The position numbers and the translations under genes were made by a program. A DNA stretch of 25,662 nucleotides from a virus: positions 1 to 25,662 of the IMG/VR virus record IMGVR_UViG_3300022842_000056, one strand, 5' to 3'. This document shows, in pieces, positions 885-21,904 of this stretch (position 1 is its first letter; each line of letters starts with the position of its first letter). Below the pieces are notes generated by a model, which saw nothing but the letters and a program-made list of their open reading frames with translations, had not been told where the DNA came from and did no database searches.

Positions 885-1049
885 TTAATTTACAAACCAA
901 GTGTACCTTTCTACTTCTTGTCTTAAATCTTCTTGAAAAGAATTATTTAATTGATTCTTCATTGTTTCTAATGATTGAAGAACTTGTTGTTGATTATCCA
1001 TACTGTACTCTGGAGTAGGTTCTGGAATGTAATTAGTTATTTTAGCCAT
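885..1049 (-). CDS. Small helical hypothetical protein (54 aa)
   Basis: A 54-residue frame starts with ATG at 1049 and ends with TAA at 887-885. The start overlaps the stop of the large tail hub gene as TAATG. The sequence begins MAKITNYIPEPTPEYS and continues with a Gln/Glu/Leu-rich stretch that would form one amphipathic helix, ending YTWFVN. No family is recognised. The exact fit between two genes, the coupled start and the coding-like composition support it as real. It may be a tail-associated chaperone or adaptor, but that is a guess from position only. Confidence 0.6.
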   Translation of the reverse strand: MAKITNYIPEPTPEYSMDNQQQVLQSLETMKNQLNNSFQEDLRQEVERYTWFVN

Positions 1050-3196
1050 TATCTTCTACCATCAGGTTGTATGTCTGCTCTAAAAGTACCATATCTCCAA
1101 GTTACTCCGCTAGATAAATTAGATATCTTCAAACTAGCAGATCTTCCTCTAGCACGTGTATCTATTTTCTGAGTACTTGATGTTACAGAAAAAGGTCCTA
1201 AAGAAGAACTAACAGACGTATCAGAAGGATAGTCTTTTAATAAAATAGTAACCGTTGCAGTTCCATCTAATCTTTGAAAATCAGGTATAAATCTTCTTAC
1301 TTTCGTAAAGTATTCTCCGTCACCTTCTAAATGAAGCATGAACTCTCCAGATTCTATAAAAGAAGTAATAGCAGTAGTTACTCCATCCTCTAATTGATCT
1401 ATTCCCGTTTCGTGTTCCCAAAAAGTAGAGGAACCAGAAGTATTAGTTACTCCCTGTATAACTGGAAAAGTAGGTACTCCTGTTTCATAAAAAGAAGTAG
1501 CATAAGGTTTATCATATAAATGTGCGTCATAGTAAGTGGTACGAGATAAAGAACTGGTATACCAAACTTTATCTTGATAGTTATAAGTAACGCATCTATC
1601 TATTTCAGTAGCTGAACTAGAAGCATAAAACCAATGTAATTCATTAAACAAAGAATTGTGACTAGCGTAAGTTAATTTTCCAGCATCATAGTTAAAACCT
1701 AGGTCTCCTGGATTAGCGGTATTAAATACAAAATCTTCTACACTACAAGGAAGTTTAACAACGGTTCCGTTATATCCGTTAAAAGAACCTGAGTCGTCCA
1801 TCCAGTAAACAATACCATCTACAAACACAATGGACTTAGAACTCATTGCTCCACAGTTAGATCCTACTTTTCTAATACTAAAAGTGAAAGGAGCTCCTAC
1901 ATACTGCATCGTATACGCAGCGGTATCGGTTAATACTAAAATGTAATCTTTTGCTCTTATGGCACCTACAATATGAGTTCCGTCATCTATCCTAAAAGTA
2001 CCTGCTGTATTAATAGAAGTTGGTTGGTAGTCATTAAAGTCTTCTTGGTCAGAAAATCTTATTAACATTGGATCAAAAGTTGAAGTATCTCCAATAGTTT
2101 CCTCTGTTCCTAAATGTATAAAGTGTCTATCTGTATCTGATACGATGGAAATAGCGGTTTTAGTTGGAGCACCTGTCATAATAGTTGCTCTAGTTTCTAA
2201 AGCATTGTTATTATTTTGTATAGGTTGCCATGTGAACGTTCTTCCATTTAATACAGTAGCAGTTAATATTTGACCAAAATTATCTAAACTCCAACTAGCT
2301 GGATCTAGTTGAACCGTAGAAGATAAGGAAGCTGAACCCCATGCAGTGTAATACTCTACCCCTGCTAAAGTAGAATGAGCGGATCGTGTTCCAGCTACTG
2401 CTCTCGTAATTCCTGTAAGATCATTAGTTGAAATACCTGTATAGGAAATAAATTCTGCTCCAACTTTAATTACTCCCGATGTTGGAAACCCTGTTGTTGA
2501 GGTAAGTGTAATAGAAGTTCCAGATCCTCCAGTACCTGCAGTGTCATCTAATAAAGCACCATCTAAAGTAGTAGTAAGTCCAGATGCTCCTCCGTAAGCA
2601 CCTGTTCCAAATCCAAAGCCGAATGTCTGTCCAATAGGACCTACTTTAACATATCTGTTTATAGTACATGCTCCTGACCCTGCAACAGTAACTCCCGCAT
2701 TCGTTGCCATCGTTATGGTAAATGTATTAATCGTTGCACTAGTTACTTCAAAAGTTTGATCAGTAAAATTCGCTGCAGTATACCCCGCTCCAACTGGAGG
2801 AGTTACGCTAGTAAAAGTAAAGTAGTCCCCTGCAATCATGTTGTGACCCACTAAGTTAATGGTGACCGTTGGTGAGGTATTGGTAGTATCAAACGTTCCT
2901 CCCGTTTGCGCTGTCTCTAAAGGAGTAATATCGTAATACGCTCCTCCATAATAAATGTATAATCCTCGTTGAGTACCAATTACTACATATCTATTGCCAT
3001 CTAAATCCGACCACTGGTGCTGTGCTCTGGTAGCACCTGCTAAAGTATTGGTAGTAATTTTAGACCAACCGCCTACTTTTTCAGGGAAGCCATAACGAAA
3101 ACGTACAAAATCACCGTCCACATACTGTCCTTCAGCTGCGGTATCGGTTATCTGTTTATTAAAGCCTGGTCTTATATTAATTAAATTTAAAGGCAT
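1049..3196 (-). CDS. Tail hub/nozzle-type virion protein (715 aa)
   Basis: This is the second-longest gene. The N-terminus (MPLNLINIRPGFNKQITD) and the segments FRYGFPEKVGGW (33-44) and a repeated dGNRYVVIGTQRGLYIY pattern look like P22 gp10-type tail hub or 'nozzle' proteins of short-tailed phages, which use a beta-propeller-like body below the portal ring. Residues about 100-200 are a Thr/Gly-rich beta insertion. Residues about 225-285 carry a GFPTSGVIKVGAEFISYTGI motif seen in many phage tail proteins. The C-terminus from about residue 610 is another beta domain. Its place after the island, with the connector proteins encoded upstream, fits a late tail component. A TATAAT lies only 5 bases before the ATG, and AAGG lies 11 bases before it. 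The family match is from memory. Confidence 0.72.
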   Translation of the reverse strand: MPLNLINIRPGFNKQITDTAAEGQYVDGDFVRFRYGFPEKVGGWSKITTNTLAGATRAQHQWSDLDGNRYVVIGTQRGLYIYYGGAYYDITPLETAQTGGTFDTTNTSPTVTINLVGHNMIAGDYFTFTSVTPPVGAGYTAANFTDQTFEVTSATINTFTITMATNAGVTVAGSGACTINRYVKVGPIGQTFGFGFGTGAYGGASGLTTTLDGALLDDTAGTGGSGTSITLTSTTGFPTSGVIKVGAEFISYTGISTNDLTGITRAVAGTRSAHSTLAGVEYYTAWGSASLSSTVQLDPASWSLDNFGQILTATVLNGRTFTWQPIQNNNNALETRATIMTGAPTKTAISIVSDTDRHFIHLGTEETIGDTSTFDPMLIRFSDQEDFNDYQPTSINTAGTFRIDDGTHIVGAIRAKDYILVLTDTAAYTMQYVGAPFTFSIRKVGSNCGAMSSKSIVFVDGIVYWMDDSGSFNGYNGTVVKLPCSVEDFVFNTANPGDLGFNYDAGKLTYASHNSLFNELHWFYASSSATEIDRCVTYNYQDKVWYTSSLSRTTYYDAHLYDKPYATSFYETGVPTFPVIQGVTNTSGSSTFWEHETGIDQLEDGVTTAITSFIESGEFMLHLEGDGEYFTKVRRFIPDFQRLDGTATVTILLKDYPSDTSVSSSLGPFSVTSSTQKIDTRARGRSASLKISNLSSGVTWRYGTFRADIQPDGRR

Positions 3197-3240: not shown

Positions 3241-4833
3241 TTAACTTTTAATTAGTAGTTTATTAAAATCTGCAAAGTAGACATATTTTAAACTTGAAGA
3301 CCTAACTGTATTCATAATATCGTCTAAACTATCTACAATAGGGTATCCTGCTAAATTAAAAGAGGTGTTCATAAGAACAGGAATAGGAAACATTTTAAGT
3401 ATTTTATATAAATTATTATTATCGTTTCTATTAACTGTTTGTATCCTACATGTATTGTCTACATGAACTAACGAACTTATAGAATGTTGAGCTAAAGGTC
3501 TCGCTTGAGGAGCATGCATCATAAAGGGGGTGCTTTTTATCCCTGCCATATCAAAATAAGTATCTGCTTTTTCTTCTAGTATAGAACAAGCAAAGGGTCT
3601 AAAATGTTCTCTTTTTTTAATATCGTTCATTATATCTTTAGCATTCTTTAATGTAGGATCTAGTAATAAACTCCTGTTTCCTAAAGCTCTAGGTCCTGCT
3701 TCTGCTTTTCCCTGTATTAATCCTACAACATTACCTTGAGTTAATAACTCTACTACTTCGTTTAAACTTACCTCTTTTAAATATTCATTGTCTTTAAAGG
3801 AATAATCTAAACTATTAATTCTGTTACCGATGTAAATATTTTCTAAAGGATGTATTTTTTGTTTCGCTAAAACATTTATGGCATACACTATACCGATTGA
3901 ATTACCTCCGTCTCCACATAAAGGATCAAACCACAAATTACATTCAGGGAATGCTTTATGTAATTTATAGTTGTTAACCACATTAAGTGCAGTGCCTCCT
4001 GTAAAAACCATATTAGGGTGTTTGTATTTATGTACTAAATTTTTATATTTTTGCTCAAATAATTCTTGGCATGAAGATGCTTGATCTTTAGATTGTGTAT
4101 CTAAACTTAATACTTCTTTTCCTGTAAATTCTTCTGGTATCGGCTCAGAGGTACCATACGATTGAAACCCCATAAATTTACCTTCCTCATTTTCAAAACC
4201 GTAATGTTGTGAAACTTTTGAATAAAAAAGACCTAAATCTAAATAATGACTTACATCAAAAACAGTTTCGTCTGTAATGGTAAGCGGTTGTTTAACGACA
4301 TGTCCTTTGTTTGTATCAGGGTGATACGTGAGGTCGGGTGCATATTTTTCATTATGTATATCATGTGTATATAATTTTTTATAAATACATTTTGAATCTT
4401 CATAACTTAAATCGTATACAGAACAAGTCTCATGGGTAGATGCTTTATTTTCTAAAAACCAATCACTACCTCTATTATCTACTACAAATACTCTAGCACT
4501 TTTAAACTTAGAATCTACAAATGATTTAAAAGCATGAGTTAAATGATGAGAGGCATGCAAAGAATGAGGTTCATTTATTACTTTGATATTTAGATGTTTT
4601 AAATAACTTTTTAAAAATTGAAGTTCTTCTTTAACAAAATTATAAGAAGACAAAAAACAAAAATCTAATTCTTTATTAAAATAGTTCAAGGAGTTAAGTA
4701 AAGAGTTAAAAGGAAAAAAATTATAGTGTTTCTCTTGGATAACTTTTCTTTCCTCGTTGTAAAAAATAAGTTTTCCATTATCAAATAAAGAAACAGAAGG
4801 GTCGTGCCCTGTTTGTATACCTAATATTTTCAC
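3241..4833 (-). CDS. Carbamoyltransferase, NodU/TobZ family (530 aa)
   Basis: A full-length two-domain carbamoyltransferase. Known members make carbamoyl-adenylate from carbamoyl phosphate and ATP, then pass the carbamoyl group to a hydroxyl of a small molecule, sugar, antibiotic or modified base. The N-terminal Kae1-like domain shows LGIQTGHDPSVSL (4-16), the metal-binding HHLTHA (96-101), VVDNRGSDW (117-125), TGGTALN and the CGDGGNSIG phosphate loop. The C-terminal YrdC-like domain shows EAGPRALGNRSLLLDP, HFRPFACSI, HVDNTCRIQTV and MNTSFNLAGYPI. All the usual blocks are present, so it should be active. It starts with GTG at 4833, with no Shine-Dalgarno sequence, 7 bases after the dioxygenase gene. 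It is last in the island. The substrate is unknown; nearby hydroxylases may supply its acceptor. Confidence 0.93.
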   Translation of the reverse strand: MKILGIQTGHDPSVSLFDNGKLIFYNEERKVIQEKHYNFFPFNSLLNSLNYFNKELDFCFLSSYNFVKEELQFLKSYLKHLNIKVINEPHSLHASHHLTHAFKSFVDSKFKSARVFVVDNRGSDWFLENKASTHETCSVYDLSYEDSKCIYKKLYTHDIHNEKYAPDLTYHPDTNKGHVVKQPLTITDETVFDVSHYLDLGLFYSKVSQHYGFENEEGKFMGFQSYGTSEPIPEEFTGKEVLSLDTQSKDQASSCQELFEQKYKNLVHKYKHPNMVFTGGTALNVVNNYKLHKAFPECNLWFDPLCGDGGNSIGIVYAINVLAKQKIHPLENIYIGNRINSLDYSFKDNEYLKEVSLNEVVELLTQGNVVGLIQGKAEAGPRALGNRSLLLDPTLKNAKDIMNDIKKREHFRPFACSILEEKADTYFDMAGIKSTPFMMHAPQARPLAQHSISSLVHVDNTCRIQTVNRNDNNNLYKILKMFPIPVLMNTSFNLAGYPIVDSLDDIMNTVRSSSLKYVYFADFNKLLIKS

Positions 4834-4840
4834 GTGACTA

Positions 4841-5359
4841 TTAATTGTACCAAAGAGGAATAGTGTATCTAAACCCTGATTTTATTATATCCACCGCATG
4901 TTCATTTTTATAACCACTATCAAACATAACAAAATCTAATGCTTTTGGTTTGTATCGTTCTCCATCTTTAAATACTAACTCTCCTCCTTCGTAGTCATCA
5001 TTAAGATACAAGATACTGGAGTAGTTCATTAAATCTTTTCTTCCATCAGAAACATCTTTTTTTTGGTCTATGTGAAAGCTCATATGATGACCCTCTTTCC
5101 ACCTACATAAAATAGGATCTTGAAAAGGATAACATTTTGTATTAAAAAAATGATCTACGAAAAAACAACCTTTTGAAGTTATATATTTTAATATTTCTTT
5201 TATTTGAGGATTGCTTATATCCATTATATGTAAACTTCTTTCTGCATGTCCAGGGGAAAAATCAGTGCACAATCTTTGATTCTTATCCCAGTATTTCATA
5301 AGTATCTCGGCTTCATAAGGTTTGATAAAGTTATGAATTTGTATTCTTACATCATCCAT
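4841..5359 (-). CDS. 2OG-Fe(II) dioxygenase, prolyl-4-hydroxylase-like (172 aa)
   Basis: The double-stranded beta-helix core is easy to see. The HxD metal pair is H96-I-D98, preceded by the approach strand CRWKEGHHMSF. Then come the LYLNDDYEGGELVF strand pair (117-130), the KPKALDFVMFDS turn, the distal metal ligand H154 and the 2-oxoglutarate-binding R164 in FRYTIPLW. These are all the catalytic residues of the P4H/PhyH-like superfamily, which hydroxylates proline, lysine, nucleobases or small molecules with O2 and 2-oxoglutarate. At 172 residues it is a minimal single domain. It overlaps the upstream dioxygenase gene by 8 bases and lies 7 bases before the carbamoyltransferase, suggesting coordinated expression. 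The substrate cannot be read from the sequence. Confidence 0.88.
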   Translation of the reverse strand: MDDVRIQIHNFIKPYEAEILMKYWDKNQRLCTDFSPGHAERSLHIMDISNPQIKEILKYITSKGCFFVDHFFNTKCYPFQDPILCRWKEGHHMSFHIDQKKDVSDGRKDLMNYSSILYLNDDYEGGELVFKDGERYKPKALDFVMFDSGYKNEHAVDIIKSGFRYTIPLWYN

Positions 5360-5945
5360 TTGGCATAACTTCTAAATTAAAAGAAAGAGAGACCCTAGGT
5401 TCATCACTCATACTTTGACTAACTGCATGTTTTAAATAAGAAGGAAATATAATTATATCATTTACTTTAGGTGTCACTATGTGAACAGAATGAAAATCGG
5501 AGCTACCTGATATATAAGAGCTATAGTGAGGGGACATTAAATTAACAGGTGAATTTTCATTATAAAATTCTAACTTCCCAGAATTAACAGGTGTCTTTAA
5601 ATAAAAAACTCCTGAAAAACTACTTCCTGCATGAGTATGAATGGTATTAGAAGAGTGTTGGTAATTTTCATTAATCCAACAATTACCTAATCTAATGTTT
5701 ACAGGTTTTAATTGAGTGTCTTGAATAATAGACAAGTAGTTGGATAAATGGGTCACTACCAGTTGAGAAGTTTCTTCCAAAACTTTTTTATTTTTAATGT
5801 CGGGTGTTTGGAAACCTCCTACATTGCTTTTAACAACTCCCTTTTGTTGTTTGCATACCTCTAACTCTTCTAAGATAAGTTTATTATAAGTAGGATTGTA
5901 ATTACTAGACCTATAAATAGAAATAGTAAAAATATCTTTCTTCAT
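5352..5945 (-). CDS. Putative 2OG-Fe(II) oxygenase, TIGR02466-like (197 aa)
   Basis: The pattern matches the TIGR02466 group: an N-terminal helical part, then NCWINENYQHSSNTIHTHAG (88-107), SGVFYLKTP (111-119), a beta stretch and a late NDIIIFPSYLKHAV segment. Likely metal ligands are H103 and/or H105 and H173; R184 in EPRVSLSF fits the 2-oxoglutarate-binding arginine. This group occurs in cyanophages, pelagiphages and marine bacteria, and no substrate is established that I know of. The gene starts with ATG at 5945 with only an A-rich leader (no Shine-Dalgarno sequence), 2 bases after its upstream neighbour, and overlaps the next dioxygenase gene by 8 bases. Confidence 0.82.
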   Translation of the reverse strand: MKKDIFTISIYRSSNYNPTYNKLILEELEVCKQQKGVVKSNVGGFQTPDIKNKKVLEETSQLVVTHLSNYLSIIQDTQLKPVNIRLGNCWINENYQHSSNTIHTHAGSSFSGVFYLKTPVNSGKLEFYNENSPVNLMSPHYSSYISGSSDFHSVHIVTPKVNDIIIFPSYLKHAVSQSMSDEPRVSLSFNLEVMPNG

Positions 5946-5947
5946 TT

Positions 5948-6169
5948 TTATTTTTCTTTGTAAAAATCAGATACTTTAGTAGGCTTGTTTCTCAAATCAG
6001 GTCTAAAGTTTATATTAAATTTTCCTAAAGCATGAGCAAAAATATTGGTAAAATTTTTAAATGCTTCAGCACTAAAGTGTATTCTTCCATAGCACAAAAC
6101 AATAAATCTTTCTCTAAAGGAAAATTTTATGTCAGCGGATCCGTCTTTCTTAGATTGTATAATATTCAT
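5948..6169 (-). CDS. Small hypothetical protein (73 aa)
   Basis: A 73-residue basic protein with a hydrophobic, aromatic central part (FRERFIVLCYGRIHFSAEAF, residues 18-37) and a polar, positively charged tail. The central segment is too broken by charges for a clear membrane helix. I do not recognise a domain. It lies within the dioxygenase island, with 24 bases upstream and 2 bases downstream to the neighbouring genes, and has no Shine-Dalgarno motif. The composition is coding-like and it fills its gap exactly, so it is probably real. Confidence 0.6.
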   Translation of the reverse strand: MNIIQSKKDGSADIKFSFRERFIVLCYGRIHFSAEAFKNFTNIFAHALGKFNINFRPDLRNKPTKVSDFYKEK

Positions 6170-6193
6170 GAGAGATCGATACCATAATTAAAT

Positions 6194-6691
6194 TTAATAG
6201 TCAATTATCCAACACACAACATTAGACAATGTATCAGAAGTATTCTCAAGGAAAGAATAATTTAGACAAGAATCATATATTATATATCGTCCTTTTTTTT
6301 CTGGTATTAGCTTTCCAAAATCATTAAAATAAACGCCATCAAAGTCTTGATTATCTAAAAATAATAAACCAATTAGTTGATTGATGTACTTATTATGTTT
6401 TTTCTTAAAAGGATAATCTTTATTAATTTGATGTACACTCACTGATTTAATAACTATACCGCCATTAACAATTTGTTGTGTATCGTTATTAATACTTGTT
6501 ATAAATGTTTGAAAAATTTTATTGTTTTGAAAAAAATTATCTTTAGATGTTTTTACACCTGTATCGTTGACCCATTGATTTTTTTTAAAATTACAAATTT
6601 GTTCTTTTAATTCGTCACATAAACTAGTGTTAGGTAAATCATTAGTAAAAAGGGTAGTATTAATTTTTACTTCATTTTGAGCATAAAACAT
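6194..6691 (-). CDS. Degenerate dioxygenase-like beta-helix protein (165 aa)
   Basis: The C-terminal half follows the layout of a 2OG-Fe(II) dioxygenase. GLLFLDNQDFDGVYFNDFGK (108-127) matches the usual 'LYLN-D-EGGEL-F' strand pair, then LIPEKKGRYIIYDS (128-141) matches the turn before the distal histidine, and VVCWIID matches the last strand. The catalytic residues are missing: there is no HxD in the expected place, the distal histidine position reads LNYSF, and the final Arg is replaced near TLSNVV. It may be a non-catalytic partner or a decayed enzyme. This is inference from pattern matching. The gene is intact and very AT-rich, 1 base after the upstream dioxygenase stop, with an A-rich leader. 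Confidence 0.55.
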   Translation of the reverse strand: MFYAQNEVKINTTLFTNDLPNTSLCDELKEQICNFKKNQWVNDTGVKTSKDNFFQNNKIFQTFITSINNDTQQIVNGGIVIKSVSVHQINKDYPFKKKHNKYINQLIGLLFLDNQDFDGVYFNDFGKLIPEKKGRYIIYDSCLNYSFLENTSDTLSNVVCWIIDY

Positions 6692-6692
6692 T

Positions 6693-7268
6693 TCATTTTT
6701 TTTTATTTCTTATTACAGCAGGAGCTCCTAAACAATAACGTTTGTCCAACATCCATTCTTTATTAGAACCCTCTTTATCTACGTAATGCATAAAAACTTG
6801 AGAGCACCAATCTCCTTTAAATTCTTCTCTCCAATGCTTGAGTTCACATCCTAAATAAACTACCGCATCCCCTGCCTCTAACTCACAAGGAGTTCCTTCT
6901 ACAAAAATAGGCCACTTAATAACATCTGACCCTAAATTAACTGTAACGCTAATTTCACATGATGGTCTGTCTTTATGTGGAGGAAGTTCCGCATATTGAG
7001 TGTACATCCTCCAGAGAGTATAAGTAGGAAGTAATTGTTTACCTGTTATTTCTTCCATATGTTTTTTCTTCATCATCATAGCAGTCTCCATTACAGGATC
7101 TCCATAAAAAGAAGTATCTAAAGTAGTTAAGTGTGTATTAACGATAGGGTCCATAGATTGTTCTAAAGAATGTTTTATTTTAGTATGCCCACATAACAAT
7201 TCTGCTACTTCTGGACTTAAAAAGTTTTTTATTACTTTGTATTTAAAATCTTTTCCTATAATGCCCAT
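6693..7268 (-). CDS. 2OG-Fe(II) dioxygenase family protein (191 aa)
   Basis: The core shows LWRMYTQYAELPPHKDRPSC, with H98-x-D100 as the metal pair, then ISVTVNLGSD, KWPIFVEG, a LEAGDAVVYLGCELKHW turn with the distal H145, and QVFMHYVD as the final strand. This arrangement (HxDRPSCE and GCELxHWRE) is a compact marine phage and bacterial subgroup I recognise from memory, distinct from the classic prolyl hydroxylases next to it. The usual terminal Arg is not obvious; R147 lies just after the distal His. The enzyme is likely active but its substrate is unknown. It overlaps the preceding dioxygenase gene by 13 bases and precedes the degenerate relative. Confidence 0.82.
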   Translation of the reverse strand: MGIIGKDFKYKVIKNFLSPEVAELLCGHTKIKHSLEQSMDPIVNTHLTTLDTSFYGDPVMETAMMMKKKHMEEITGKQLLPTYTLWRMYTQYAELPPHKDRPSCEISVTVNLGSDVIKWPIFVEGTPCELEAGDAVVYLGCELKHWREEFKGDWCSQVFMHYVDKEGSNKEWMLDKRYCLGAPAVIRNKKK

Positions 7269-7834
7269 GATACTACCGAATACCTTGTTCCTTTTGTTAC
7301 TGATTCTACTGTGTGAGGGTACATAAAATTACTTGGCCAAATAATTAATTTATTTCTTTTTGTTTTTATATTAATTTTTTGTTCTTCTTTAGGTAGATGA
7401 AAACAAAGATCTCCTCCTTCATAATCATCATTGACTAAAAAAATCATAGAATACGTTCTTGGTGTAGTTGTACCATGATCTACATGAGGTTTGTAAAAAC
7501 CTGCATCTTCATATTTTAAAACTGAAATATTTTCTAAATGATATCCTTTCCAACTGATATCAAATCGGTTTAAGTAATCAGTTAAATGGTACTTAAATAT
7601 AGCTATAAATCTATTGCACCAATGAATATCTGTAAGTAACTTATTGTTTTGATGTGAGATATTATAAATCCATGTTCTTCTTATATTAAAATCTACCAGT
7701 CCTTGTTCCTCACTTGAATCTCCTGCAATGCCTGCTTGAGCAAATTTTCTAGAATCTAAAACTCTTCTAAAAACATCTAAAGATGTCTCTGGTAGTACAT
7801 CATCATAGGCTACTATAAATTTTGCTATATCCAT
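7256..7834 (-). CDS. 2OG-Fe(II) dioxygenase, prolyl-4-hydroxylase-like (192 aa)
   Basis: Numbering from the ATG at 7834, the catalytic set is complete: H117-V-D119 in FYKPHVDHG, MIFLVNDDYEGGDLCF as the central strands, NKLIIWPSNFMYPHTV with the distal H174, and R184 in GTRYSVVSW. It is a typical single-domain P4H-like enzyme. A longer reading from a TTG at 7849 is possible, but the ATG has GGAAAAAGAAAAC just upstream and gives a normal N-terminus (MDIAKFIVAYDDVLP), so I prefer it. The gene overlaps the end of the upstream 240-residue gene by 10 bases and the next dioxygenase by 13, so translation is probably coupled. The substrate is unknown. Confidence 0.87.
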   Translation of the reverse strand: MDIAKFIVAYDDVLPETSLDVFRRVLDSRKFAQAGIAGDSSEEQGLVDFNIRRTWIYNISHQNNKLLTDIHWCNRFIAIFKYHLTDYLNRFDISWKGYHLENISVLKYEDAGFYKPHVDHGTTTPRTYSMIFLVNDDYEGGDLCFHLPKEEQKINIKTKRNKLIIWPSNFMYPHTVESVTKGTRYSVVSWAL

Positions 7835-8547
7835 GTTTTCTTTTTCCAAAACCCTGTTTTATAATTCATAAATAAACGAAATCCATAAACAATTTTATCT
7901 AACAACTGTTTTTTATCATTAATAGTTTCTATTTTCATTTTCCAAGATTCTCTTTTAAAAGGAATTACTTGTACATAATTTGTACCCTTTTTAACTAAAC
8001 TTTTCAAGGTATCGTATTTATCTCCGTTTAAAATAAAAGGGAAATTTACTCTATTATGAAAGGTATCTGTATCCACGATTCCAGGCATAATAGAAAACCT
8101 ATCATCGGTATTATTTAAGGGAGGAACAAATAAACAAGAATACCCTGGTGGCGTTTTTATAATCCAAGGATTTAATATTTTAAATATTGAGGAAGCTTTA
8201 TTTTTATGTACTAAAGGAGAACTTTTACCTAGTTGAGTGTAAGGATGAACGTCTGTATTTGTACCTTTATTAAGATTAAAAGAATCGTATACTTCGTTAC
8301 TAGTATTTGCAAAGGTAATATTTGCTTCTCCTGTTTTTTTAAAATAAATTTCAAAGTCTTGAGGAACCTCTAAAACATATCCAGAGGTTAAAGTGTCTAA
8401 AAAGGGAAGGCACCCTTTTATAGTTTTATTATCAAACGAATGATTAAGTTTTTTAAACCATTCGGGTATATTATACTTTATGGGTTTTGGGTAATGTTCT
8501 TTTAAATCTACGTATTCTTTAGTAGCTATAAACTCTATGTTATTCAT
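7825..8547 (-). CDS. Marine-phage protein of unknown function, DUF6065-like (240 aa)
   Basis: Conserved-looking blocks include IPEWFK (27-32), TIKGCLPFLDTLTSGYVLE (42-60), NPWIIKTPPGYSCLFVPPLN (126-145), PGIVDTDTFHNRVNFPF (155-171) and VQVIPFKRESWKM (192-204). I recall this pattern from cyanophage and pelagiphage proteins, possibly the DUF6065 family; the family name is uncertain. The DTDTFH cluster (159-164) could bind metal, and the predicted fold is beta-rich, so a cupin-like enzyme is conceivable but unproven. It is the first gene of the island and may have its own promoter. Its stop lies inside the first dioxygenase gene. Confidence 0.7.
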   Translation of the reverse strand: MNNIEFIATKEYVDLKEHYPKPIKYNIPEWFKKLNHSFDNKTIKGCLPFLDTLTSGYVLEVPQDFEIYFKKTGEANITFANTSNEVYDSFNLNKGTNTDVHPYTQLGKSSPLVHKNKASSIFKILNPWIIKTPPGYSCLFVPPLNNTDDRFSIMPGIVDTDTFHNRVNFPFILNGDKYDTLKSLVKKGTNYVQVIPFKRESWKMKIETINDKKQLLDKIVYGFRLFMNYKTGFWKKKTWI

Positions 8548-8587: not shown

Positions 8588-9046
8588 CTAAATCAGTTCT
8601 AATAAGCTATAGTAAGGCTGAGACGAGTCCTCTAATAGTTGAGGTACTGTTTTTGCCAATGGATAGGTTTTTGAAGAAGCATCAATATTGGATATGTTGG
8701 TCTTAAAAGTGTTCCATAGATTAAAATCAACATGGTCTTTATTTTTTCTTAACCAAATATTTAAAGTATTAATCATTTGTTTTTTTTCTTCGTTTAAACC
8801 AGCTTCATCAATGAAACTGAAAGTAGATGAAATATCATCGTATAGAACATTATCTGAATCATCATACCTTATATTTACATATAATAGTTTTTGAACATTA
8901 TTAAATACATTGTCTGTTACAGTTATAACTTTGTATAAATCTTGGTTGATATGTAAATTTGATAAAGAATTATCGGATGCTGCTATACGAACTATAGTCC
9001 CTACAACGTTTGCACAATCTTTATTAAAAATAAAATGTTTAGCCAT
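8588..9046 (-). CDS. Hypothetical protein after the tail fibre (152 aa)
   Basis: A 152-residue acidic protein that starts with ATG at 9046, overlapping the tail fibre stop as TAATG, with GGAG 12 bases upstream. The N-terminal half has beta-strand character (MAKHFIFNKD, LYKVITVTDNV); the C-terminal half is helical with a LNEEKKQMINTLNIWLRKNK stretch. I recognise no domain. Its tight coupling to the fibre gene suggests a fibre-assembly chaperone or fibre-tip partner, as small genes after fibre genes often are. That is inference from position. Confidence 0.65.
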   Translation of the reverse strand: MAKHFIFNKDCANVVGTIVRIAASDNSLSNLHINQDLYKVITVTDNVFNNVQKLLYVNIRYDDSDNVLYDDISSTFSFIDEAGLNEEKKQMINTLNIWLRKNKDHVDFNLWNTFKTNISNIDASSKTYPLAKTVPQLLEDSSQPYYSLLELI

Positions 9047-10257
9047 TAACTTTCTTCTCCAAATACAAGTAAATGACCATTACCACCTACAAGTCCTGGA
9101 ACAATTTGTAGTCTACCATCAGCGGCATGACTTGAAAATGTATTTCCTACAAATCCTCCATTAAAACCTAAGGGTAAAGTATTTAGAGGTGCTGGACCAG
9201 ATGAATTTCCTGGATTCCCACTACTACCAGTGCTATTCGGACTTGCTGCTCCGCCACCGTTGCCTCCGTTTACTGTTGCAAAGTTTGCAATAGAGGTTGC
9301 TCCGCCAGCTCCACCAGATCCTCCTGGAAAATTACCTAAATTACCACCAGCACCAATTGAATAAGGTTGAGAGAATGGAGCCGCAACTGATCCTGTAGCA
9401 AGCACTGTTAGACCTTCTCCTCCGCCGCCGCCTGTGTTACTAGGACCACCTCCGCCACTTCCTCCGCCACCTGAAGACATGATAGCTGTAAGACTATCTG
9501 TTCCAGCGGGTGGAGTAAATGTCCCTGAAGCAGGTCCATCTCCGATTAGTAAAGCAGCTACTCCAGCTCCTCCTGCTGCACCTGAAGATGCAGATGTAAT
9601 TCTTCCTTGAGCATCTACAGTCAAAGCAGTAGCTGTGTAGTCACCTGCAGTTACTGCAGTGTTTGCTAATTTATCAGCGGTGACTGCATCGTCTGCAATT
9701 TTAGCTGTCGTGATTTGTAAATCAGAAACTTTCGCTGTCGTAATTTGATTGTCTGAAATTTTAGCTGTTGTAATTTGATTGTCTGAAATTTTAGCTGTTG
9801 TAATTGCGTTGTCTGCAATTTGTGCTGTTGCAATAGTTCCACCTAAAGTGTTTAATGCAATTTCATTTAAATTAGTTCCATCAGAATAAGCTGCTACAAT
9901 AGCCGCTTCTCCTGCTGTAAAACCTGTACCAGAAACTGTTTTAATAGTTAAGTTAGTAACTCCTACTACAGCACTTAAATCAATAATATAAAATTTTTCT
10001 AAAGCGTCTGGGATAGTTACTGTAGAAGCTGATGTAAGAGTTCCAGTGAACTTTAAAATCATATTTCTTGCGTTGGATACGGCTCCATCCGTCAATGCAA
10101 GAGTAACTGTTCCTCCATCGCTTAAAGCAATTGATTCGTAACCAGCGGCTACTTGATTAATTAAATTTAAATTTGTATTTGTTTTATCTCCCCATGTACC
10201 AGCGTTTTCGCCAGTGACCATAAGCTCTAAACCGAGATCTGAATAACTTGATGCCAT
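9046..10257 (-). CDS. Tail fibre-like protein with glycine-rich tip (403 aa)
   Basis: Three regions are visible. Residues 1-140 form a virion-anchoring domain beginning MASSYSDLGLELMVTGENAG, with GTWGDKTNTNLNLI (20-33), typical of marine phage tail fibres. Residues about 143-195 are five 10-residue repeats of the form ITTAKISDNQ, probably a trimeric shaft. From about residue 228 the C-terminus is a glycine-rich domain (GGGGSGGGGP, GGNGGG, GGSGGAGG), like the polyglycine receptor-binding tips of some phage adhesins. The role is likely host recognition. An AGGAG lies 13 bases upstream of the ATG. It is followed by a TAATG-coupled small gene and then the cargo island. Confidence 0.85.
   Translation of the reverse strand: MASSYSDLGLELMVTGENAGTWGDKTNTNLNLINQVAAGYESIALSDGGTVTLALTDGAVSNARNMILKFTGTLTSASTVTIPDALEKFYIIDLSAVVGVTNLTIKTVSGTGFTAGEAAIVAAYSDGTNLNEIALNTLGGTIATAQIADNAITTAKISDNQITTAKISDNQITTAKVSDLQITTAKIADDAVTADKLANTAVTAGDYTATALTVDAQGRITSASSGAAGGAGVAALLIGDGPASGTFTPPAGTDSLTAIMSSGGGGSGGGGPSNTGGGGGEGLTVLATGSVAAPFSQPYSIGAGGNLGNFPGGSGGAGGATSIANFATVNGGNGGGAASPNSTGSSGNPGNSSGPAPLNTLPLGFNGGFVGNTFSSHAADGRLQIVPGLVGGNGHLLVFGEES
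9691..9840 (-). repeat. Five tandem 30-base repeats in the tail fibre gene
   Basis: Five head-to-tail units of 30 bases start at 9691, 9721, 9751, 9781 and 9811. The units at 9751 and 9781 differ only at three bases near the end, and the outer ones are more diverged. Each encodes ten residues of the fibre shaft. Loss or gain of units would keep the frame and change shaft length. Confidence 0.85.
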
Positions 10258-13811: not shown

Positions 13812-14260
13812 GGTTTGTATATTACCTTATCTTCTTCTCTGGAAGCTTTTAACACACTGTTTCTATTTTTTTCTCCATTCCAAGAAACGTGTATCCACCC
13901 TGAGTTAGGCTCATCTTTTTTATAAAACTCAAGTATTAATTGATCAAATTCTAGATTATCTCTAATCCATTGAGCTAGTTCTTTATTATCTACACTGGTT
14001 ATTTCTAGGTCAGCCGCTTTTCCTTCGGCATGTTGACTGCTTATTTTAGATCCAATGGCAATACACAATTCTTGAGATCGATATCCTGATGAAATTAATA
14101 CTGGAGAATCAAATTGAGAGCGTATGGGCTGTAGTATATTCACGCACAATGCCTTTAAATTATCTATATGAGATGGAGACGGATTGTTAGGTATTCCTTT
14201 TCTCTCCGCTACTTGAGACTTAACAAGTTCACTTAATTGAAAATTAGCAGAAAGTTTCAT
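13805..14260 (-). CDS. Endolysin-type M15 peptidase (D-Ala-D-Ala carboxypeptidase fold, 151 aa)
   Basis: The peptidase M15_3 motifs are complete. SSQHAEGKAADLEI gives the zinc ligands H77 and D84, DQLILEF gives the catalytic E111, and GWIHVSW gives the third ligand H124. The preceding SSGYRSQEL (58-65) is also typical. No signal peptide is present, so release to the cell wall would need a holin. At 151 residues it is the usual size of a single-domain phage peptidase that cuts peptidoglycan stem peptides at the end of infection. Start and stop are coupled to neighbours: TAATG with the 213-residue gene, and ATGGTAA with the 49-residue gene. Confidence 0.9.
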   Translation of the reverse strand: MKLSANFQLSELVKSQVAERKGIPNNPSPSHIDNLKALCVNILQPIRSQFDSPVLISSGYRSQELCIAIGSKISSQHAEGKAADLEITSVDNKELAQWIRDNLEFDQLILEFYKKDEPNSGWIHVSWNGEKNRNSVLKASREEDKVIYKPW

Positions 14261-14901
14261 TATTTTTTTTCTTTAATTTCATAGAACATATCATCGCTGT
14301 CGTCTGTTTTCCAGTCTTTGTTTTCTACGTTCCACGTGGTAGTTTGGACTTTATAGTCTGGCTTAGCGTCACTAGTAGTAAAACTAGGAATGTTCCACAG
14401 AATACGATTATTAGGCTGAGCTGCATAATTACCGTTATCAAGAGCCAATATATGTGCACACTTATGTTCATGAGAAATTTCAGAATGGTCCGTATCCAAC
14501 ACATTAGGTTCTGGGTGAGCCCAATCAATAGTAAATAAATATTCTCCGTGATACATTTTTTTATCTTTGCCAAAAAATTTACCACGTTGTCCATCTAAAA
14601 AAGAATAATTAGTAACAGCAGGATGATAACTAAAACAGTTCCACAACTGTAACTCGTCAACTTGCATATCGGGCACTTTGGTTCTTTGAAGATGTTTTTG
14701 AAAAAAAGCTGAGATAGGCAATCGATAGTAGACCGCACCATTCGGTAGTAAGGCGTGAAACAAGATGGCTCGGGTGGTGATTGATGCAAACCCGAAGACC
14801 ACACACTCCTCACTTTCTCCATGATGACTTTTAAGATCATAAAGATACTCTTTCCTAACGGAACAATACAGTGGTGGTATATTTGAATTAAGATATGCCA
14901 T
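14260..14901 (-). CDS. Conserved marine-phage hypothetical protein (213 aa)
   Basis: The N-terminus MAYLNSNIPPLYCSVRKEYL with YDLKSHHGESEECVVFGFAS (21-40) is a pattern I recognise from many uncultured marine phages, always without a function. Other blocks are LFHALLPNGAVYYRLPISAF, ELQLWNCFSYHPAVTNYSFL, YLFTIDWAHPEPNVLDTDHS and HILALDNGNYAAQPNNRILW. It looks like a compact globular cytoplasmic or virion protein. It lies directly upstream of the endolysin gene and is coupled to it by TAATG, so a role late in infection is possible. Frames within it on the same strand are shadows. Confidence 0.8.
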   Translation of the reverse strand: MAYLNSNIPPLYCSVRKEYLYDLKSHHGESEECVVFGFASITTRAILFHALLPNGAVYYRLPISAFFQKHLQRTKVPDMQVDELQLWNCFSYHPAVTNYSFLDGQRGKFFGKDKKMYHGEYLFTIDWAHPEPNVLDTDHSEISHEHKCAHILALDNGNYAAQPNNRILWNIPSFTTSDAKPDYKVQTTTWNVENKDWKTDDSDDMFYEIKEKK

Positions 14902-19910: not shown

Positions 19911-20348
19911 CTAGTAGTTATGAATGATATTTTGTGGATCACTGACCGTGCCGATAATTTCATCGTCATTAAGAATCCTTACTTCTCCAAGATCTGTTTT
20001 AAATCTAGATCCAGCGTATCTTCCAAAGATTACCCACTGTCCTTCTTTACACCAAGCTCCTGTGGGAAATTTAGTTTCGTCTTGATAACAAAGAGGTCCC
20101 ATTTTTATTACGAGAGCACATACAGTTGCTATAGACATTCTTTCTTGAGCTTCATCCGATATATGAATTCCACCTTTTGTTTTGGAAGGCGGCATGTAGG
20201 GACGTACTAAAATTCTCCAGCCAGTAGGCTCTGGAACTTTACTAAGCATTTCTGATATGTCATTTGGATCGGTAGGTATAGTTGAATCTTTTTCTTTTTT
20301 AAGACTCGAAACTATCGCTGACCCGTCTGGTTTCACTAAGGTCGTCAT
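19911..20348 (-). CDS. GroES-like co-chaperonin (145 aa)
   Basis: The GroES beta-barrel is visible from residue 43: GWRILVRPY (43-51), a mobile loop about 52-72 with KTKGGIHISDEAQE, TVCALVIKMGP, a PTGAWCKEGQWVIFGRYAGS strand pair (96-114) and VRILNDDEIIGTV (123-135). Residues 1-40 are an extra N-terminal extension. Phage co-chaperonins such as T4 gp31 replace host GroES so that GroEL can fold the large capsid protein; the scaffold and capsid genes follow at once, so the same role is likely. The gene overlaps the upstream 78-residue gene by 50 bases. A shorter start at M34 would keep the barrel. Confidence 0.86.
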   Translation of the reverse strand: MTTLVKPDGSAIVSSLKKEKDSTIPTDPNDISEMLSKVPEPTGWRILVRPYMPPSKTKGGIHISDEAQERMSIATVCALVIKMGPLCYQDETKFPTGAWCKEGQWVIFGRYAGSRFKTDLGEVRILNDDEIIGTVSDPQNIIHNY

Positions 20349-20573: not shown

Positions 20574-20960
20574 TTATTTTTTCTTAGTATTAATAATATC
20601 CGTTGCTTTTATGCCATATACAGCCGCTACCACTGAAATCCAAAGTCCAGTAATCCACCATGGCATAGCCTGTAATTTTTCAAAATAAATATCTAATTTT
20701 TCACCTATCTTCTCGTCTTCTGCAAAGACTGAATAGGCTAATAAAAACAAAGGTGAAGATAAAACTAAAAGTATAAATTCATCTTTCCAGTCTCCTTTTT
20801 GAGACTCAGATACTTGATGCTTGAGCTCTATTTCTCCTCGAGACATTTTCTCTGCGTGCAGTAATCTTGCCTGTGAGATAGCTTGTTTTTCTTTTTGTTT
20901 GTTTTCGTATACCGTGGTCGCCGTTTTGAACGCTGACCCTAAAAGATTCAACCATATCAT
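20574..20960 (-). CDS. Holin-like membrane protein (128 aa)
   Basis: Two clear membrane helices are present: EFILLVLSSPLFLLAYSVFA (about 60-79) and PWWITGLWISVVAAVYGIKA (about 99-118). They are preceded by a basic, helical N-terminal part (MIWLNLLGSAFKTATTVYEN, possibly a third weak membrane segment) and end with a Lys-rich tail. The WWITGLW motif and layout resemble GTA-type three-segment holins, which let an endolysin reach the wall. Its role is inferred, since the endolysin lies 6 kb away. The ATG at 20960 lies inside the end of the homing endonuclease frame, with AAGGA about 13 bases upstream. Confidence 0.72.
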   Translation of the reverse strand: MIWLNLLGSAFKTATTVYENKQKEKQAISQARLLHAEKMSRGEIELKHQVSESQKGDWKDEFILLVLSSPLFLLAYSVFAEDEKIGEKLDIYFEKLQAMPWWITGLWISVVAAVYGIKATDIINTKKK

Positions 20961-21267
20961 AATATTTTTTCGTCCTTCTTTTGCCTAAAAAGGGTATCAT
21001 CTGTTCTAAGACCTGTAAAGCATGTAGTCCACTTACTGACCATGCCCAAGCTTGTTTGTGGTAATCTCTTAATTTTATTTTTCTAAAACTACCAGCATTA
21101 AAAAAAACTTGAAATCTTTCTATAATATCTAAATCGGTCATAGATACAGAAAGTTCTATTCGTTTTCGATTAGATCCACTTTTCCAATATCCAAAGCTAC
21201 CTTCTCCTTCAAATACTCCAGCAAGAAATGATAATTTTTGTTTTTTACTCCAAAGAGAAAAATTCAC
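20806..21267 (-). CDS. LAGLIDADG homing endonuclease (single motif, 153 aa)
   Basis: Residues 15-26 read LAGVFEGEGSFG, a clear LAGLIDADG motif with E22 as the expected catalytic acid. Typical strand blocks follow (RKRIELSVSMTDLDIIERF, then AWAWSVSGLHALQVLEQMIP), ending LGKRRTKKYY near residue 103. One motif implies a homodimer. Such enzymes cut a long target and copy their gene into it. GTG at 21267 is chosen as the start, 1 base after the preceding stop; a GTG at 21321 would overlap the upstream gene by 53 bases. The C-terminal 50 residues lie inside the holin-like gene in another frame and look unlike the family, suggesting insertion just before that gene. Confidence 0.82.
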   Translation of the reverse strand: MNFSLWSKKQKLSFLAGVFEGEGSFGYWKSGSNRKRIELSVSMTDLDIIERFQVFFNAGSFRKIKLRDYHKQAWAWSVSGLHALQVLEQMIPFLGKRRTKKYYDMVESFRVSVQNGDHGIRKQTKRKTSYLTGKITARRENVSRRNRAQASSI

Positions 21268-21268
21268 T

Positions 21269-21904
21269 TTAATAAAGTTTAATTTTTTTATGACCTTGAA
21301 CTTGAATAGATTTAGTACCACGAGTAGAAACGGAAGTTCCTGTTTTCGCTCGTATAAAATTGATTCTTTTAAAAGTAGATGGCTTATCTATAGATAGAGA
21401 AGATAAAGAATTAATTTTAGGTAAAGAAGAATCTGAACCATCTGAAGTCTGAGTAGAGGTAGGGGTAGTTTTATTTTTCATACCCATAGCTTTTCTTCCT
21501 TTAGAAGTGTCACTTAACGTTTTGATACCAGTATACACACCAGCACCAGGCACTACCATGGCTGGTCCCATTGCACTAACATTAGCTGAAAAATTATCTC
21601 CGAAAGAAGTTATACTTCCTTTAGGAGCATACGCTTGCGTCTCGTAATCAAAATCACCATCATTTCCATAACTACTATCTTGGCTAGTATCTACACCTGC
21701 TGCATTTGCTTCTGCTTCGGAATATCCACCACCGCCAGTATCTTCAGCGTCAAGGAAACTAGGTATACCGTTTATCTTTTTTCCAGAGCCACCTAATTTT
21801 TTTAAAAGCTTAGCTTCTTTTTTGTTAATGTAAGCAAGGAACTCACCTTTAGGAGCTTTGTCCTCTAAAGTCTTCTTAGCTGATTTTATTTTTCTTTTTA
21901 CCAT
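21269..21904 (-). CDS. Hypothetical virion-type protein (211 aa)
   Basis: The N-terminal part is basic (MVKRKIKSAKKTLEDKAPKG), then EFLAYINKKEAKLLKKLGGS (21-40) and a short GIPSFLD. The rest is Gly/Ser/Thr-rich and likely disordered, with a small hydrophobic stretch AMGPAMVVPGAGVYTGIKTL. The 'APxGEFLAYINxxEAxLLKxxGG...GIPSF' block is familiar from podovirus-like marine phages, where it heads internal-virion-type proteins; that recollection is the only hint to function. It overlaps the upstream 51-residue gene by 29 bases in another frame. Confidence 0.7.
   Translation of the reverse strand: MVKRKIKSAKKTLEDKAPKGEFLAYINKKEAKLLKKLGGSGKKINGIPSFLDAEDTGGGGYSEAEANAAGVDTSQDSSYGNDGDFDYETQAYAPKGSITSFGDNFSANVSAMGPAMVVPGAGVYTGIKTLSDTSKGRKAMGMKNKTTPTSTQTSDGSDSSLPKINSLSSLSIDKPSTFKRINFIRAKTGTSVSTRGTKSIQVQGHKKIKLY

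Follow-up and report, generated by a model that had tools for sequence, protein, structure and literature searches.

The fibre-hub interval

The window analysed here, a virus fragment of 25,662 bases (IMG/VR record IMGVR_UViG_3300022842_000056), carries head genes followed by those for the capsid, tail and fibre and then by a hub gene, and the subject of this study is the block of genes between the fibre (9046-10257) and the hub (1049-3196). The hub protein is 57% identical to gp72 of Pelagibacter phage HTVC023P, and the window is a fragment of a relative of the HTVC023P-type pelagiphages, which form a common group of marine phages of the SAR11 type. We take the hub to be P22 gp10-like, through the phage stabilization protein annotation of its homologues. 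The interval contains nine genes, H152, G240, F, E191 (hereafter E), D165, C73, B197, A172 and a carbamoyltransferase gene (CT), all on the minus strand and mostly overlapping or abutting. The initial annotation of this DNA correctly placed the block next to the fibre gene, between fibre and hub, while two conserved genes in it went unnamed (5948-6169, C73; 7825-8547, G240). The features are as follows, 2OG standing for 2-oxoglutarate.

9748..10257, - strand: fibre, N-terminal part (residues 1-170), of virion-backbone type; PHROG 31104 over residues 1-170
9046..9615, - strand: fibre, C-terminal part (residues 215-403), glycine-rich end domain and putative receptor-binding tip; Gly_rich_2
8588..9046, - strand: H152, small protein next to the fibre; 84 homologues of at least 130 amino acids
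7825..8547, - strand: G240, DUF6065-like, with a predicted dUTPase-type fold; PHROG 7084; core
7256..7849, - strand: F, 2OG-Fe(II) dioxygenase of the prolyl-4-hydroxylase/PKHD kind; PF13640 2e-17; core
6693..7268, - strand: E191, 2OG-Fe(II) dioxygenase usually misnamed ferrochelatase; metal triad and predicted fold; core
6194..6691, - strand: D165, ligand-less dioxygenase relative and conserved pseudoenzyme; dN/dS and the L124 homologue
5948..6169, - strand: C73, small conserved protein; 88 homologues; core
5352..5945, - strand: B197, TIGR02466/2OG-FeII_Oxy_5 dioxygenase; Pfam 2e-22, TIGR02466 1e-24; variable cargo
4841..5359, - strand: A172, 2OG-FeII_Oxy_3 dioxygenase; Pfam 2e-12; variable cargo
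3241..4833, - strand: CT, predicted NodU/TobZ-type O-carbamoyltransferase of 530 amino acids; Carbam_trans N and C domains; variable cargo, occurring sporadically among relatives
1049..3196, - strand: hub, related to proteins annotated as phage stabilization proteins; bounds the module downstream

A conserved core and a variable slot

Relatives of the hub protein were fetched regardless of the enzymes encoded beside them, relatives of E were fetched separately, and the genes of all these loci (numbered with L below) were classed with profiles built from the window proteins. At the hub-fetched loci, 39 of 41 fibre-hub intervals contain at least one dioxygenase-family gene. Within the window's own clade the commonest arrangement is fibre-H152-G240-F-E-C73, then a variable slot and then the hub; because the same order recurs in dozens of contigs, it is not a chance arrangement. 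The H152 family is kept in most relatives, and it is possible that the protein is a fibre chaperone or a tip protein. At one locus (L015) the B-C73-E-F-G240 block runs in the opposite orientation to fibre and hub, and around distant hub relatives (28-37% identity) none of these families is present in the stretch examined.

Different phages carry, in the variable slot and past the hub, further dioxygenases as well as Trp_halogenase, JmjC/cupin, sulfotransferase and epimerase genes, among others. As their profile matches show, the genes after C73 occupy a slot that takes up further tailoring enzymes, in the window two more dioxygenases and CT. Tryptophan-halogenase family cargo lies in this same slot at L008:4618-6153, L018:8753-9901 and L026:4916-6046, two of the proteins being short (376-382 amino acids).

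CT is distributed differently from the dioxygenases. Only 8 of the 50 records contain it, L008 and L009 having been fetched through CT itself, and in most CT-bearing records it lies on the far side of the hub gene. There are two types: type 1 (530 amino acids) precedes the hub in the window and in L008, and type 2 (500 amino acids), which is very divergent from type 1, follows the hub in a few lineages. The initial annotation had proposed that hydroxylases and carbamoyltransferase could act in sequence and had suggested a survey of their co-occurrence in related contigs. That survey bears out the dioxygenase half, in that the core order recurs, but not the half concerning CT. With dioxygenases near-universal in relatives and CT sporadic and of two divergent types, we reject a joint pathway as a conserved unit. 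A specific hydroxylation-carbamoylation pathway is not thereby refuted, since cyanomyoviruses have CT immediately next to the F-E pair in the neighbourhood of the fibre gene; it is possible, although unsupported as a conserved function, and we infer the order of hydroxylation before carbamoylation for CT-bearing members only.

The fibre tip and the core genes as a recombining unit

Protein distances were compared gene by gene over 65 non-redundant loci, with 10-65 loci available per gene pair. The distances fall into two blocks. The first comprises the backbone proteins T219, T147 and T321, the fibre N-terminus and the hub, which intercorrelate at 0.30-0.91 and correlate with the hub at 0.55-0.85 (fibre N-terminus, 0.55). 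The second comprises the fibre C-terminus, H152, G240, F, E and C73, which intercorrelate at 0.29-0.67; correlations with the fibre C-terminus are 0.52 for F and 0.36 for E (both p 0.002), 0.49 for H152 and 0.60 for C73. Between the blocks there is essentially no correlation, either for the hub against the fibre C-terminus, H152, G240, F, E and C73 (about 0, ranging from -0.09 to 0.08) or for the fibre N-terminus against F and E (about 0), even though one gene encodes both ends of the fibre. A stricter run of 23 loci, with hub distance partialled out, gives the same picture.

Because the distances form two uncorrelated blocks, we place breakpoints inside the fibre gene and in the stretch from C73 to the hub; tip and enzymes are exchanged as one unit. 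We consider it very probable, on these protein comparisons, that the fibre C-terminus, H152, G240, F, E and C73 recombine together relative to the virion backbone. The C-terminal part of the fibre is assigned by a Pfam Gly_rich_2 match of 1e-4, which is slightly below the cut-off.

Four dioxygenases and a pseudoenzyme

The initial annotation recognized four 2OG-Fe(II) dioxygenase-type proteins with metal ligands, and complete triads are indeed present in E, F, A172 and B197. F matches 2OG-FeII_Oxy_3, and its H122, D124, H179 and R189 are conserved in 88 of 88 homologues. Its profile matches 51 PDB sequences, dominated by prolyl hydroxylases and PKHD-type enzymes, with PKHD-type PiuC, collagen prolyl 3-hydroxylase (P3H1), HIF prolyl hydroxylase (EGLN1) and bacterial prolyl 4-hydroxylase (P4H) as the closest solved relatives; neither TET nor AlkB is listed among the sequences matched. 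The family of F is PHROG 61, whose predicted structure resembles human prolyl hydroxylase EGLN3 and which is widespread in marine phages (PMC12774648). A172, also of the 2OG-FeII_Oxy_3 type, has ligands H96, D98 and H154 plus R164, and its nearest solved relatives are PiuC and prolyl 3-hydroxylase 1. B197 has H103, H105 and H173 invariant in 57 of 57 homologues and matches two uncharacterized solved proteins. The assignment to prolyl-hydroxylase and TIGR02466 types, rather than to TET/JBP types, thus agrees with the profile matches.

E has no Pfam match, and its family carries the label ferrochelatase in phage records and in PHROGs. However, a ferrochelatase Pfam domain is absent from all 40 members of the family searched, H98, D100 and H145 are invariant in 44 of 44 homologues, and an AlphaFold model (pLDDT 92.6) has a 2OG dioxygenase fold. 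A search of PDB sequences with the E profile gave no matches; by fold, the model matches PHD2 and Pseudomonas P4H (Z about 14.9) and SnoN (Z 15.3). The absence of the domain together with the confident model rules out a ferrochelatase, and the triad and predicted fold indicate that the gene usually given that name encodes a dioxygenase. Thus F resembles the prolyl-4-hydroxylase/PKHD enzymes (EGLN1/PHD2, P3H1, PiuC, bacterial P4H) by profile and E resembles them by fold, although E is only about 10-15% identical to its fold matches. The two proteins are also found joined: PHROG 3531 is a fusion family whose N-terminal half matches E and whose C-terminus matches F.

D165 was described initially as a decayed dioxygenase relative. 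The loss of ligands holds, since the HxH and the third histidine are missing in both the window and L088, whereas a homologue at the same position in L124 (E 7e-7) retains HxH...H. The decay does not hold: between the window and L088, dN/dS is 0.17 for D165 and 0.15 for the intact E and F, and this purifying selection rules out a decaying gene. D165 is best described, by these substitution rates, as a conserved pseudoenzyme.

Iron-binding triads in proteins encoded beside tail genes could also mean that the proteins are iron-carrying parts of the virion, as in the "Ferrojan horse" idea (PMC12753301), and not enzymes. We regard this as extremely unlikely, because F keeps Arg189 throughout its homologues, as expected for 2OG binding, and because the cargo CT, halogenase and sulfotransferase would have no role in carrying iron.

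The carbamoyltransferase and the question of DNA modification

CT is complete, as initially annotated. It matches Carbam_trans_C (5e-50) and Carbam_trans_N (2e-15), both above the Pfam cut-offs, and PHROG 1601 over residues 1-522; aligned to solved relatives, its motifs HHLTHA (96), GPRALGNRS (380) and NTSFN (489) are intact. The PDB relatives are O-carbamoyltransferases, among them decarbamoylnovobiocin carbamoyltransferase, GdmN and TobZ. CT is accordingly predicted to be a NodU/TobZ-type O-carbamoyltransferase, which would transfer a carbamoyl group to a hydroxyl. Taken together, the alignments show that F, E, A172, B197 and CT all retain their catalytic residues.

G240, the remaining sizeable core protein, belongs to PHROG 7084 and gives weak DUF6065 matches in 12 of 35 members. 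A profile search of PDB sequences gave no matches. The AlphaFold model (pLDDT 85) matches dUTPases at Z 10.6 and rmsd 2.6 over 121 residues, and dUTPases fill the match list, which predicts a dUTPase-type fold; in the alignment, judged by eye, GIVDTDTF resembles dUTPase motif III, and the PRSG of motif II is not present. Given this predicted fold, the idea that G240 is a further dioxygenase is unsupported. A G240 profile scan of genome contigs found only six loci, including two phage contigs and one probable prophage, and none of the six is a bacterial operon with these enzymes. DUF6065-like relatives are located at L173:5959-6684 and L170:5980-6705; in a Devosia contig (a probable prophage), one bacterial relative immediately follows a fibre-like gene.

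The combination of these proteins raises the possibility of DNA base modification, in which a dioxygenase would make hydroxymethyl bases and CT would cap them. The MetaGPA study proved a phage-type 5-hydroxymethylcytosine carbamoyltransferase (PMC8670742), which is phage-borne and of the same Pfam family as the window CT; thymidine hypermodification genes are present in some HTVC023P-type clades (PMC9599517); and the predicted fold of G240 would fit as well. However, the MetaGPA carbamoyltransferase co-occurs with thymidylate synthase homologues, and no thymidylate synthase/dCMP hydroxymethylase homologue was found in the 50 records related to the window, CT-bearing ones included, by a search that matched 9 of 14 controls. 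None of the ten block proteins matches Tet_JBP at E 0.1; the same domain is absent from the 50 related records, in a survey in which the control genomes likewise gave no match. Because the block has no Tet_JBP match and the records have no thymidylate synthase homologue, and with the cassette co-varying with the fibre tip, we judge DNA modification very unlikely and a target other than DNA likely, as the initial annotation had allowed.

Similar gene sets in other phages

HTVC023P itself has E, F and B homologues, and clustered 2OG-Fe(II) oxygenases have been described in HTVC023P-type pelagiphages, each "ferrochelatase" having an adjacent 2OG oxygenase (Wittmers et al. 2022, PMC9599517). The phage group and the E-F adjacency are the same as in the window. 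The main text of that paper reads the ferrochelatase as haem-related, and by term search contains neither carbamoyltransferase nor tail fiber; here, in contrast, the protein is re-identified as a dioxygenase and the set is seen to move with the fibre tip.

In T4-like cyanophages, 2OG oxygenases, the T4-GC 615 "ferrochelatase", carbamoyltransferase and prnA halogenase genes have been reported (Sullivan et al. 2010, PMC3037559). Three such phages, P-RSM4, S-SSM5 and S-CAM8, which belong to three genera, have E, F, B and CT homologues in the neighbourhood of the fibre. Beyond their long fibre gene, with a few genes in between, CT stands directly beside the F-E pair; next come two small genes and then a number of additional dioxygenase-family genes. 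Profile scores are 126-130 for E and 335-359 for CT. These phages differ from the window in being myoviruses and in having CT on the opposite strand. The pelagimyophage Mosig has a run of dioxygenases after its tail fibre genes, with CT elsewhere in the genome. As to the initial remark that no described system with this exact set is known, the components are published (PMC9599517, PMC3037559), but those papers do not describe them as one system with the fibre.

The cyanophage oxygenases were interpreted as serving 2OG/nitrogen metabolism or DNA repair, and not as a unit (PMC3037559). Applied to the window, an auxiliary metabolic role would have the dioxygenases act on free amino acids or metabolites, or alter 2-oxoglutarate or iron status, with the fibre site being merely tolerant of insertions. 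The many different genes accepted by the slot fit such a site, and an iron link has been proposed for HTVC027P gp73 (PMC12753301). A neutral site would nevertheless leave unexplained the fixed core order, the invariant ligands and the purifying selection, as well as the recurrence near fibres in another phage family, and we consider a metabolic role unlikely.

A different possibility is that the enzymes act on a glycan of the host surface, or on the precursor of one, for example blocking superinfection or changing the receptor after entry, with CT carbamoylating a sugar. NodU- and TobZ-type enzymes carbamoylate sugars. CT has heptose or nucleotide-sugar genes as neighbours in P-SSM5 and S-SCSM2R, the latter phage encodes a long (427-amino-acid) E-containing protein among glycosyltransferase genes, and a glycosyltransferase gene follows the hub in HTVC023P-type phages; MetaGPA carbamoyltransferases of unmodified contigs are likewise flanked by group-1 glycosyltransferases (PMC8670742). 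A tree of carbamoyltransferases did not resolve the window CT as closer to the fibre-linked or to the sugar-linked cyanophage enzymes. On the other side, the core cassette lacks sugar genes and varies together with the fibre tip, and its position in the structural block suggests late expression, which would be less useful for blocking superinfection. The enzyme set thus recurs across phages in non-uniform settings, and a glycan role is, in our view, rather improbable for the window. The S-SCSM2R gene at L163 9001-10593 was deposited as "2OG-Fe(II) oxygenase"; because the protein matches CT along its length, the record name is likely wrong.

A candidate adhesin-modifying module

The reading that we tentatively prefer, as a serious possibility, is that the block is an exchangeable host-recognition module of HTVC023P-type marine podophages whose enzymes modify the phage's own adhesin. 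The block genes would be made late, together with the virion proteins. F and E, being prolyl-hydroxylase-like, would introduce hydroxyl groups on side chains in the variable fibre tip or in the neighbouring small protein, and the cargo enzymes (other dioxygenases, halogenase-like proteins, sulfotransferase, CT) would add to or cap those groups, CT by transferring a carbamoyl group to a hydroxyl. The outcome would be chemically diversified adhesins that vary with the receptor type. A protein of the fibre tip is the most likely target because F and A172 match prolyl-hydroxylase/PKHD enzymes and because the tip and the enzymes appear to be exchanged together. We count as further support the conserved fibre-H152-G240-F-E-C73 order, the recurrence near fibres in cyanomyoviruses and Mosig, the E-F fusion family and the halogenase, JmjC/cupin, sulfotransferase and epimerase domains among the cargo of other phages.

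Marine phage "metaviromic islands" offer a parallel: these variable host-recognition regions likewise abound in genes for tail fibres and Fe(II)-dependent oxygenases, and the oxygenases are counted under host recognition, in the sections on the islands without a mechanism or linkage structure (PMC3909814).

Several points weigh against adhesin modification. Physical linkage alone suffices for co-transfer, and action of the enzymes on the tip is not thereby implied. We know of no phage adhesin with hydroxylated or carbamoylated residues. PKHD/2OG enzymes also act on small molecules, and SnoN, a natural-product epimerase, scores as high against E as the prolyl hydroxylases do. At L169, G240-F-E lies beside a fibre of another kind, and the substrate would therefore have to differ there. 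The sugar-gene settings of the P-SSM5 and S-SCSM2R carbamoyltransferases, and the occurrence of cyanophage E among glycosyltransferase genes, also point elsewhere. The more specific proposal, that exchangeable cassettes encode, beside the receptor-binding tips, enzymes that hydroxylate these tips post-translationally and then, according to the cargo, carbamoylate, halogenate or sulfate them, we consider doubtful.

If it is true, chemistry joins sequence in shaping how the host range of marine phages evolves. From at least 2010 onwards, explanations for the marine phage dioxygenases have concentrated on host metabolism, and a core pair that travels with the receptor-binding end of the fibre points to a specific idea that is cheap to test. 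A widespread "ferrochelatase" annotation error is also corrected. A literature search gave, judged by title and abstract, no report of fibre hydroxylation by an oxygenase. In the open-licence literature we found no report that a two-block structure ties the dioxygenase pair to the tip of the fibre, that the "ferrochelatase" is a dioxygenase, that D165 is a conserved pseudoenzyme or that G240 has a predicted dUTPase-type fold, which is weak evidence of novelty.

Other genes in the window

The head gene block includes a GroES-like co-chaperonin (Cpn10, E 5e-10) at 19911-20348 and an open reading frame for a LAGLIDADG homing endonuclease (PF00961) at 20806-21321, which overlaps both of its neighbours. 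The PHROG 3704 ferredoxin label of the gene at 14260-14901 (E 8e-82) is doubtful, the protein having no Pfam match. At the end of the contig (25174-25662), there is a gene for a protein with repeated segments (LGQLKGALSEKELKDLQDGIYPKD...).

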